DNA from: Deferrivibrio essentukiensis
GTDB taxonomy: Bacteria > Chrysiogenota > Deferribacteres > Deferribacterales > Deferrivibrionaceae
Length of the DNA: 64,000 bases
Assembly (NCBI RefSeq): GCF_020480685.1
Contig: NZ_JAJAFU010000005.1
Location: 1 to 64,000, forward strand
Direction of reading: 5' to 3'
Positions 44,635 through 49,635 of the stretch are shown here, piece after piece. A program made the position numbers and the translations under genes. Each line of letters opens with the position of its first letter. Within the stretch, counting starts at the first letter, position 1. A model generated the notes under the pieces. That model worked only from the letters and a program-made list of their open reading frames with translations, was not told the DNA's origin and made no database searches.

Positions 44635-45210
44635 ATGAATAATTTTGAAATAAATATTGGTGAAAGAGTAAAAAAGTTAAGGAATGAAAGGGAATTGACT
44701 TTGCAAGACGTCGCCAATATGACCGGTTTTTCGAAAGCATTGATTTCTCAGATAGAGAATAATGTGGTAACTCCTCCGATAAATACACTTGCCAAAATTG
44801 CAAAGGTATTAAATGTAAAGATGACTTATTTCTTTGAAGAGGAAATAAATTATAAGGACTACTATCTTGTGCCTTCTGACAAAAGGAAGTTTGTTTTTAG
44901 AGAAGGTGCTAAGCATGGATATTTATACGAAGAATTAGCGTCTATTAAAAATAATGACTTGTTTGAAACCTTCATTGTTTCTATTAAGCCAAGTTCGGGT
45001 GAGAAAAAATTGTTCAGCCATGAAGGGTACGAATTTATGTTTTTATTAAGCGGAAATATTAGGATGTATTTAAACAACAATACTGTTGAGTTGAAAGAGG
45101 GGGACAGTATCGCTTTTAATTCAAAAATACCACATTATGCTGAAAGTTTAATCAATGATGATTCAAAGGTTTTGTCTGTTAGGGTTAAAAATATTCAGTT
45201 TAAAAGCTAA
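44635..45210 (+). CDS. HTH (XRE) regulator with C-terminal cupin, copy 1
   Basis: This 191-residue transcription regulator has an XRE helix-turn-helix at about residues 9-65 (LTLQDVANMTGFSKALISQIEN). The cupin_2 domain spans about residues 110-185 (SHEGYEFMFLLSGNIRMYL, then EGDSIAFNSKIPHYAES). The family usually senses a small metabolite in the cupin and controls adjacent metabolic genes. It overlaps the convergent gamma carbonic anhydrase gene by 4 bases. It is similar in layout to the regulator at 46841. Confidence 0.85.
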   Translation: MNNFEINIGERVKKLRNERELTLQDVANMTGFSKALISQIENNVVTPPINTLAKIAKVLNVKMTYFFEEEINYKDYYLVPSDKRKFVFREGAKHGYLYEELASIKNNDLFETFIVSIKPSSGEKKLFSHEGYEFMFLLSGNIRMYLNNNTVELKEGDSIAFNSKIPHYAESLINDDSKVLSVRVKNIQFKS

Positions 45211-46794: not shown

Positions 46795-46840
46795 AATTTT
46801 AATATATAATTTAAATATAAATAAAATGCAAGGAGTTAAA

Positions 46841-47377
46841 ATGAGTTATGGAGCTAAATTAAAAGATATTAGAAAAAAATTAGGTATGACCCTTGAGGAT
46901 ATTTCTCAAAAAACTGGATTTACTAAGAGTTTTATCAGTCAAATTGAGAATGGTAAAAACTCCCCGTCTATATCATCACTAAAAAAGATTTGCTACGCTC
47001 TGGGCACAACTATTAGTGAGCTCTTTGAAGATGAAAGAAATATCGTGCATAAGTTTACTGAAAATGACTATAAAATTCTTAAAAATAAAAGTCTTTCAAT
47101 GGCTTTTTTGGCAACAAAACTTGTTAACAGAAAGTTAGAGCCAATGATAGTTGAGATAGACCCTCACTCTGAAACCGGCTCAGATTATTATAGACATACC
47201 GGTGAAGAGTTTGGTTATGTTATAAAAGGTGTCTTAACTGTTGTTATTGGAAATGAGGAGTATGTATTAAAAGAGGGGGAATCAATTTATTTTAGTTCAA
47301 ACTTACCTCATAAGCTTAAAAACAAGACTGATGAAAAGTTAAAAGCTTTTTGGGTGGGTACACCGCCAAGCTTTTAA
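46841..47377 (+). CDS. HTH (XRE) regulator with C-terminal cupin, copy 2
   Basis: This 178-residue regulator has an XRE helix-turn-helix at about residues 7-62 (MTLEDISQKTGFTKSFISQIEN). The cupin spans about residues 105-170 (RHTGEEFGYVIKGVLTVVIG, then EGESIYFSSNLPHKLKN). AAGGAG lies directly upstream of ATG 46841. An ATG at 46826 has no binding site. It is a layout paralogue of the protein at 44635. The family includes PuuR-like regulators, but the ligand is unknown. Confidence 0.85.
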   Translation: MSYGAKLKDIRKKLGMTLEDISQKTGFTKSFISQIENGKNSPSISSLKKICYALGTTISELFEDERNIVHKFTENDYKILKNKSLSMAFLATKLVNRKLEPMIVEIDPHSETGSDYYRHTGEEFGYVIKGVLTVVIGNEEYVLKEGESIYFSSNLPHKLKNKTDEKLKAFWVGTPPSF

Positions 47378-47408: not shown

Positions 47409-47437
47409 TTGACAAACTAAACAAATATATATATTAA
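47409..47437 (+). promoter_or_regulatory. Promoter of the panBCD leader
   Basis: TTGACA (47409-47414), 17 bases, TATTAA (47432-47437). TATATT at 47430 is an alternative -10. Transcription would start near 47444, directly at the structured leader. Confidence 0.6.
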
Positions 47438-47443
47438 CCCCTT

Positions 47444-47545
47444 GGATGCAACAGAAGTGCATACCTTTTGAGTTTTAACATAGAATAAAGTATGCTTGGA
47501 TCCGGCAGGACCGAGACATGGAGACTGTTATAGATGACAACTACA
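47444..47545 (+). promoter_or_regulatory. Structured 5' leader of panBCD, candidate pan-motif type riboswitch
   Basis: The leader holds several stems. ATGCA/TGCAT is at 47446-47462. GCATAC-C-TTT/AAA-GTATGC is at 47459-47495 with a bulged C. GG-A-TCC/GGACC is at 47498-47512 with a bulged A and loop GGCA. A direct repeat GAGAC follows at 47513 and 47521. CCGGCAGG (47502-47509) can instead pair with CCTTCCGG (47547-47554), the 5' arm of the terminator, giving a possible antiterminator. The pan RNA motif, a candidate riboswitch upstream of pantothenate genes marked by bulged adenosines, occurs in this context. I could not test the match to its model. Confidence 0.6.
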
Positions 47546-47576
47546 GCCTTCCGGTTATGCCGGGAGGCTTTTTTTT
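47546..47576 (+). terminator. Leader terminator upstream of panB
   Basis: GCCTTCCGG (47546-47554) pairs with CCGGGAGGC (47560-47568), 9 pairs with one G-T, loop TTATG, followed by eight T. It lies between the promoter and panB with no coding region before it, so it acts as an attenuator. Confidence 0.88.
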
Positions 47577-47591
47577 GTATGGAGGTCAAAT

Positions 47592-48404
47592 TTGAGTAAA
47601 CATGTCGAAATAAAAAAAATAACTGTCAATCACATTAAAAGAATGAAGAATAATGAAAAGATAGCATGTCTTACTGCATATGACTATTCATCAGCAAAAC
47701 TTCTCGATGAAAGCGGTATTGATTTGATTTTAGTCGGTGATTCGCTGGGTATGGTAATGAATGGATACGAAAGTACAATACCGGTTACAGTTGATGAGAT
47801 TATATATCACACTAAGTCGGTTAAAAGAGCTGTTAAGAGAGCATTTCTTGTGGCAGATATGCCTTTTGGCAGTTATCAGGTTTCAGATGAGCAGGCAATA
47901 ATTAATGCTGTTAGGATTATTAAAGAAAGTGGAGCAGAAGCTATAAAGCTTGAAGGTGGAAAAGAGATTGCACCTTTAATTAAAAAGCTTTCTACAATGG
48001 GGATAAACGTAATGGGGCATATAGGGCTTATGCCACAGCAGGTTTTAGCTCACGGGGGTTATAAGATTCAAGGTAGAGATAATGATGAGAAGCTTTTGGA
48101 AGATGCATTTGCTATTGAAGAGGCCGGGGCTTTTTCTATTGTCCTTGAGGGTGTTATAGCCGAAGTAAGTAAGAAAATAACTGAAAGTATAAAAATTCCA
48201 ACAATCGGTATTGGCGCTGGTGTCAATTGTGATGGTCAGATTTTGGTTTTTCAGGATATATTTGGGATATTTGATGATTTTACACCGAAATTTGTAAAAC
48301 AGTATGCGAGAGTTGGCAATGTTATAAGGGAGGCTACAAAAAATTACATGTCTGATGTAAAGGTGTCCATTTTTCCTGAAGAAAAACACTCTTTTTTGAG
48401 GTAG
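47592..48404 (+). CDS. panB: 3-methyl-2-oxobutanoate (ketopantoate) hydroxymethyltransferase
   Basis: PanB makes ketopantoate from 2-ketoisovalerate and methylene-THF, the first committed step to pantothenate and CoA. The 270-residue protein has the family blocks CLTAYDYSSAKLLDESGIDL, LVGDSLGMVMNGYEST, HTKSVKRA, MGHIGLMPQ and IPTIGIGAGVNCDGQILV. The start is TTG, set by GGAGG at 47581-47585 with 6 bases spacing. It is first in panBCD, behind the leader and terminator. Confidence 0.95.
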   Translation: MSKHVEIKKITVNHIKRMKNNEKIACLTAYDYSSAKLLDESGIDLILVGDSLGMVMNGYESTIPVTVDEIIYHTKSVKRAVKRAFLVADMPFGSYQVSDEQAIINAVRIIKESGAEAIKLEGGKEIAPLIKKLSTMGINVMGHIGLMPQQVLAHGGYKIQGRDNDEKLLEDAFAIEEAGAFSIVLEGVIAEVSKKITESIKIPTIGIGAGVNCDGQILVFQDIFGIFDDFTPKFVKQYARVGNVIREATKNYMSDVKVSIFPEEKHSFLR

Positions 48405-48408
48405 CAAT

Positions 48409-49257
48409 ATGATAGTAATAAATAAAATTGAAGATTTAAGAAAGATAATAAAAAAAGAAAAATTGGAAGGGAAAAAAATTGGTTTTGTCCCTACTATGGG
48501 TTATTTGCACGAAGGACATTTGAGCCTAATTAAAAAAGCTAAATCTGAAAACAGTATTGTGGTTTGTAGTATATTTGTAAACCCTACTCAATTTGGACCT
48601 AATGAGGATTTGGAAAAATATCCACGTGATTTTGAGAGGGATAAATTTCTTTTAGAAAAGGAAGACTGCAATATTCTTTTTTATCCAACTGTTCAGGAGA
48701 TGTATCCTGACGGATTTTTCACAAAAGTTTCTTTAAATGTTCTTACTGGTAAACTTTGTGGTAAAAGTCGACCGGGTCATTTTGACGGTGTTGCCACTGT
48801 AGTGACGAAGTTGCTAAATATTGTGGCTCCAGATAATGCATATTTCGGATTAAAGGACTATCAGCAACTTCTTGTTATTAAACGGGTTGTTAAAGATTTA
48901 AATATCGACACAAATATAGTTGGTTGCCCTATTGTGAGGGAAAAGGACGGGCTTGCCTTAAGTTCCAGAAATGTTTATTTAACAGAAGAGCAAAGAGAGT
49001 CTGCACTTTCTTTAAATAAATCATTTTCCCTTGTAGAAGGGATGCTTTTAAAAGGGGTCAAGGACGCAAATAAAATAAAAAAAGAGGTAATTAAGTATAT
49101 TGAAGGGTTCCGCTTTACTAAGATTGATTATGTTGAAATTGTGGATCCTGAAACACTTGAAACTATAGAAGAGATAAATGGTAATTTTTTGATGGCATTG
49201 GCGGTTTTTGTAGGGAAAGCAAGACTTATAGATAATAATGTGTTTACAATAAATTAG
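48409..49257 (+). CDS. panC: Pantothenate synthetase (pantoate-beta-alanine ligase)
   Basis: PanC joins pantoate and beta-alanine with ATP. The 282-residue protein has the nucleotidyltransferase motifs VPTMGYLHEGHLSLI (HxGH type), VSIFVNPTQFGPNEDLEKYP-like sequence, GKSRPGHFDGVATVV, FGLKDYQQL and the KMSKS-like SSRNVYL. The length is typical. It starts 4 bases after panB. Confidence 0.95.
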   Translation: MIVINKIEDLRKIIKKEKLEGKKIGFVPTMGYLHEGHLSLIKKAKSENSIVVCSIFVNPTQFGPNEDLEKYPRDFERDKFLLEKEDCNILFYPTVQEMYPDGFFTKVSLNVLTGKLCGKSRPGHFDGVATVVTKLLNIVAPDNAYFGLKDYQQLLVIKRVVKDLNIDTNIVGCPIVREKDGLALSSRNVYLTEEQRESALSLNKSFSLVEGMLLKGVKDANKIKKEVIKYIEGFRFTKIDYVEIVDPETLETIEEINGNFLMALAVFVGKARLIDNNVFTIN

Positions 49258-49266
49258 GGGTGAAAT

Positions 49267-49635
49267 ATGAAAAGAGAGATGTTTAAATCAAAAATTCACA
49301 GAGCTACAGTTACAGATGCAGACCTTCATTATGAGGGTAGTATTACAATTGACAAGGATTTGATGGACTTAGCAAATATTAAGACTTATGAAAAGGTGGA
49401 TATTTATAATATTACCAACGGTGCCAGGTTTTCAACTTATACTATTGACGGCAAAAGGGGGGGCGGTGAAATTTGCTTGAATGGTGCTGCTGCTAGGATG
49501 GTACAACCCGGAGATATGGTTATTATTGTTTCTTATGGTCTTTACGATGAAGAAGAGTTGGAGAATCATAACCCAATTGTTATACAGGTGGACGAAAAAA
49601 ATAGACCTATCAACAAAGATAGGGTATTAGCATAA
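49267..49635 (+). CDS. panD: Aspartate 1-decarboxylase
   Basis: PanD makes beta-alanine for pantothenate. The 122-residue proenzyme contains the self-cleavage site YEGSITID, where Gly-Ser cleavage yields the pyruvoyl group. [14 protein letters not shown] and [20 protein letters not shown] are family blocks. It completes a panBCD operon and begins 9 bases after panC. A terminator follows. From 49682 to 49813 I see nothing further. Confidence 0.95.

Follow-up and report, generated by a model that had tools for sequence, protein, structure and literature searches.

What does the 183-base leader that lies between an XRE-cupin regulator gene (46826–47377) and the panB-panC-panD genes of Deferrivibrio essentukiensis do, and which base pairings would allow it to do so? 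All positions given here refer to the forward strand of the window, i.e. the whole 64,000-nucleotide stretch of DNA that was analysed. The leader begins with a putative promoter (47409–47435), read from the sequence as TTGACA (47409–47414) and TATATT (47430–47435); since its 15-nt spacer is short, a promoter scan with 16–18 nt spacers did not pick it up, and by-eye inspection found the TTGACA-15-TATATT arrangement in several Deferribacterota leaders as well. Downstream lie (i) hairpin 1 (about 47443–47465), with bulged A's at 47451 and 47463; (ii) hairpin 2 (47492–47519), with bulged A's at 47500 and 47516 and an inner stem centred on a near-invariant U-G pair; (iii) after a linker, an intrinsic terminator (47545–47576, −19.4 kcal/mol) made of a stem (47545–47569) and an eight-T tract (47569–47576), the single terminator-like site detected, the average for shuffled sequences being 0.4; (iv) the GGAGG Shine-Dalgarno sequence of panB (47581–47585). 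The NCBIfam equivalog models TIGR00222, TIGR00018 and TIGR00223 identify, all above cut-off, panB (ketopantoate hydroxymethyltransferase, 47592–48404, TTG start), panC (pantoate–beta-alanine ligase, 48409–49257) and panD (aspartate 1-decarboxylase, 49267–49635). An earlier note on this DNA had already described the promoter, structured stems, eight-T terminator and panB, and the sequence, the terminator scan and the NCBIfam models find each of them in place; the leader is indeed structured, its predicted RNA fold being more stable than 200/200 dinucleotide shuffles (z=−3.5). The bulged-A hairpin of that note is also present, with two bulged A's per hairpin in the Rfam alignment rather than one.

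The hairpins belong to a known family. The Rfam pan model (RF01749) matches 47443–47523 with 49.3 bits for a cut-off of 36.2, as the earlier note had suspected, and the leader is therefore a genuine pan motif, an additional member, in Deferribacterales, of a cis-regulatory family already known; the match is the sole one in its genome. SgrS and the remaining Rfam matches all fell under their cut-offs and were rejected. Weinberg et al. reported the pan motif in 2010; in the passage of their report compared here, it comes from three phyla that are not named there, the window leader being from Deferribacterota (PMC2864571). It consists of the same two hairpins, usually in tandem and with two conserved bulged A's per stem, upstream of panBCD; both window hairpins have these bulged A's, and panB-panC-panD follow. 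Hairpin covariation, which had been proposed as a check, is evident among 33 diverse hairpin-2 sequences: 97.3% of the cells are paired, and double-sided changes number 34, as against 11.2 after shuffling.

About 200 relatives were compared with the window leader. The Rfam pan model was run on the genomes of the window's phylum and, through loci obtained with a DNA pattern, on other clades, whose names are taken from the loci that served as search centres; about 26 of 62 DNA-pattern matches, judged by eye to be chance matches inside coding sequence, were discarded. The model matched 6/51 genomes in Deferribacterota, 163/199 in Bacillales, 67/90 in Negativicutes, 13/118 in the delta-proteobacterial phylum and 51/119 in the Clostridia-like phylum. 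A second model (R1), restricted to hairpin 2 and matching the window at 47490–47521, recognized 28/121 Chloroflexota and 19/51 Deferribacterota genomes, in the latter always upstream of panB; these Deferribacterota matches are not independent of the model, since R1 was built partly on sequences of that phylum. Given 19/51 with R1 versus 6/51 with the two-hairpin Rfam model, the single-hairpin form of pan is common, and Deferribacterota with the motif mostly carry hairpin 2 alone, unlike the tandem of RF01749. A terminator lies within about 150–200 nt in 136 of 175 related leaders, compared with 6 after shuffling. Note that in six relatives (L025, L050, L051, L064, L037 and L041) hairpin 2 is enclosed by an extended outer stem of the GGTTG..CAACCGGG type; at E 0.001 the Rfam pan model has no match in their genomes.

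The pairing that could couple hairpin 2 to the terminator involves two long strands, one (47501–47528) comprising the loop, the 3' strand of hairpin 2 and the conserved tail that follows it, the other (47543–47564) comprising the 5' arm, the loop and the start of the 3' arm of the terminator. Folding and re-pairing tests assign to these strands a putative antiterminator that pairs 47501–47507 with 47558–47564 (UCCGGCA/UGCCGGG), 47509–47513 with 47552–47556 (GACCG/CGGUU), 47520–47523 with 47548–47551 (GGAG/CUUC) and 47525–47528 with 47543–47546 (CUGU/ACAG). The tail, which is unpaired in the Rfam pan model, thus becomes part of the antiterminator, and the hairpin-2 loop faces the terminator's loop and 3' arm rather than its 5' arm. 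In the re-pairing test, the duplex formed in each of 117 deduplicated terminator-bearing leaders with its own terminator arm was compared with duplexes whose arm came from another leader. For the 3' strand plus tail, the own arm is the preferred partner (z=−7.1, 0/2000), and the full exchange duplex has a native mean of −18.6 kcal/mol as against −15.65 kcal/mol when re-paired (z=−10.7, 0/3000). The preference persists within clades (Bacillales, p=0.0018; Negativicutes, 0.0002; Clostridia-like, 0.0004; Delta, 0.001; Deferribacterota, 0.0004 with 11 leaders and 0.0026 with 7 selected to be distinct), a design that lessens but does not eliminate the effect of shared ancestry, the clade labels being those of the search that fetched each leader. 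Pairing of the tail only, which was tried first, gave a weaker within-clade signal than the full exchange. Control segments, namely the 16 nt ahead of hairpin 2, an upstream linker and the reversed tail (z=−1.7), showed no comparable signal.

The middle base of the outer stem pairs both with the 5' strand of hairpin 2 and with the terminator, and it covaries three ways: the combinations at o2/p2/t2 are C/G/C in 41 leaders, U/A/U in 41 and C/G/U in 14, the 19/117 unpaired cases being counted apart because the partners were taken from each leader's best duplex. In the predicted antiterminator, the terminator strand thus takes the place of hairpin 2's own 5' strand. Hairpin 2 plus terminator is more stable than the antiterminator in 111/117 leaders, and in 116/117 the antiterminator is more stable than hairpin 2 alone, two orderings that match what a switch needs. 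Altogether, the computations establish pairings that are mutually exclusive, as expected of a riboswitch expression platform, and that co-evolve; they support an antiterminator that would arise by colinear strand exchange and undo both hairpin 2 and the terminator. The duplex reaches 22 pairs and −40.6 kcal/mol in one relative (L247) and is weaker in exceptions such as L007, L042 and L167. In a group of Negativicutes (L090–L093 and L095), hairpin 2 has a tetraloop and the conserved tail is TTGTAAACGTAGG instead of the GAAGG type; the antiterminator is weak in the leaders of this group that were examined.

In the window RNA, predicted ensembles keep hairpin 2 up to about 47555, turn to the antiterminator at 47560–47565 and return to hairpin 2 plus terminator from 47570, as computed at equilibrium on a growing RNA, i.e. 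not kinetically, with energies at 37 °C for an organism that may grow hotter. The final energies are −41.0 kcal/mol for hairpin 2 plus terminator versus −33.3 kcal/mol for the antiterminator, so that whatever keeps hairpin 2 closed would be expected to promote termination. The GGAG.CUGU/ACAG.CUUC portion of the antiterminator does not overlap hairpin 2, so that the coupling may be weaker in the window than in Bacillales.

We propose, with a probability of roughly three in four, that the leader, with its tandem pan RNA, acts as an OFF transcription attenuator, in which a bound, closed hairpin 2 lets the terminator fold. From the pairings we infer termination itself, the OFF direction of control and the existence of an effector. 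When bound, the effector would keep hairpin 2 shut around its two bulged A's; the terminator would form and panBCD would be off. When unbound, 47501–47528 would leave the 5' strand of hairpin 2 and zip colinearly onto 47543–47564, so that the terminator would lose its 5' arm, its loop and the start of its 3' arm, allowing read-through into panBCD. An ON-type response is conceivable, since the regulon described below includes CoaX as well as uptake genes. Sharing of an aptamer strand with the antiterminator and a terminator as the bound-state default are also features of the OFF riboswitches that work by transcription attenuation, for example those of the purine or TPP classes, with the difference that in pan most of the 3' half of the hairpin, including the loop, would be exchanged instead of one short switching strand. 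Likewise, the PyrR and TRAP leaders, which are protein-controlled attenuators, have small hairpins whose binding favours the terminator, as proposed for pan; in contrast to them, no binding protein has to our knowledge been identified for pan.

The earlier note had also proposed mutually exclusive states. The coupling of hairpin 2 to the terminator on which they depend is supported by co-evolution, but the partner that it named appears to be wrong: the antiterminator was thought to pair the loop segment CCGGCAGG (47502–47509) with the terminator 5' arm CCTTCCGG. The complementarity is real, with 7/8 pairs and a single mismatch, and the isolated duplex has an energy of −11.1 kcal/mol; CCGG is self-complementary, however, which makes chance matches easy. 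Co-evolution is absent (z=+0.5 for the 117 leaders; p=0.69 for Deferribacterota), and forcing this pairing in the nascent window RNA raises its energy from −24.1 to −18.8 kcal/mol, a penalty of about 5 kcal/mol, its pairing probability being 0. We therefore rejected this antiterminator, which we hold to be very improbable. The idea is echoed in terminator-less relatives, the Denitrovibrio-type leaders L236, L238 and L239 (genomes named Denitrovibrio share the order of the window genome, Deferribacterales) and L242, in which the hairpin-2 loop is complementary to a pre-Shine-Dalgarno segment over 7–10 pairs (p=0.0056, exhaustive permutation of six leaders); these few sequences suggest a translational version of the same switch logic. 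Given the position of the terminator between the XRE-cupin gene and panB, one could also imagine that it merely ends the upstream transcripts and that the hairpins affect RNA stability. This is extremely unlikely in our view: the hairpin shows co-evolution with the antiterminator pairing, the leader has a promoter-like site of its own, and Bacillota, in which linkage to an XRE-cupin gene was neither seen nor sought, likewise have pan plus a terminator ahead of panB and of further pantothenate genes. Returning to the attenuator, what the analysis adds is a computationally supported expression platform for pan, which corrects the pairing named previously. Since the antiterminator co-evolves in at least five clades, it designates the bases to mutate and the read-out that should follow, with an OFF response as its prediction; the pairing exchange hints at how this poorly understood RNA could turn genes off.

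As to the effector, candidates are narrowed by the genes that pan hairpins head: panB, panC and those encoding a DUF2520 Rossmann protein, PanS, PanF, ECF transporter components and CoaX. A regulon that combines synthesis, uptake and CoaX speaks for CoA or one of its phosphorylated precursors, which could act on the RNA itself or by way of a protein; shutting off a pantothenate-consuming kinase jointly with synthesis and uptake would suit a corepressor that arises downstream of this kinase. CoaX-type kinases are devoid of feedback inhibition by CoA (PMC12570885). Pan RNAs might even be a widespread OFF switch that senses CoA (or phosphopantothenate/phosphopantetheine) and supplies the feedback that such kinases lack, a conjecture that we consider doubtful. 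The same pairing switch could be operated by an RNA-binding protein that, as a dimer and perhaps together with a CoA-type corepressor, would grip the two bulged-A hairpins, a reading to which we give slightly less than an even chance. The 2010 authors suspected such a protein, the hairpins being simple and usually tandem according to the part of their report considered here (PMC2864571), and the unit, two bulged A's around a 5-bp stem, is judged small for a metabolite pocket. Against a dimer, single-hairpin forms of pan are common. We know of no candidate pan-binding protein. The neighbouring XRE-cupin regulator is of a DNA-binding type. Its gene lies upstream of the pan leader at 16/19 Deferribacterota pan loci, and XRE-cupin and PanB are each 62–100% identical to the window copies, XRE-cupin being the better match in most relatives; we did not adopt it as a pan-binding factor because the linkage was seen solely where it was sought, in Deferribacterota. 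Alternatively, a metabolite (pantothenate, pantoate, beta-alanine or a CoA-type compound) could bind directly, making pan a true riboswitch. This remains a tentative reading, with the odds somewhat against it: the hairpin sequence is strongly conserved across at least five clades and the regulon spans the whole pathway, but the aptamer would be very small, and a search confined to open-access papers found no report of a pan ligand, of a mechanism or of this platform. Control of CoaX, which consumes pantothenate, is not easily squared with pantothenate being the only corepressor.

Near the XRE-cupin gene, the window contains a second regulator gene of this type (44635–45210), and both products resemble PuuR, below its cut-off. 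Among the relatives, pan hairpins stand directly ahead of coaX (L256, L263 and L268), panF (L094), panS-panC(-panD) (L018 and L049) and birA followed by the gene for an ECF S-component (L170 and L190). Apparently single pan hairpins head ECF operons in Spirochaetota and Chloroflexota (L028, L041, L051 and L064). These operons encode two ECF ATPases and a PF12822-type S-component and continue with coaX, which suggests that this S-component is a candidate pantothenate transporter.
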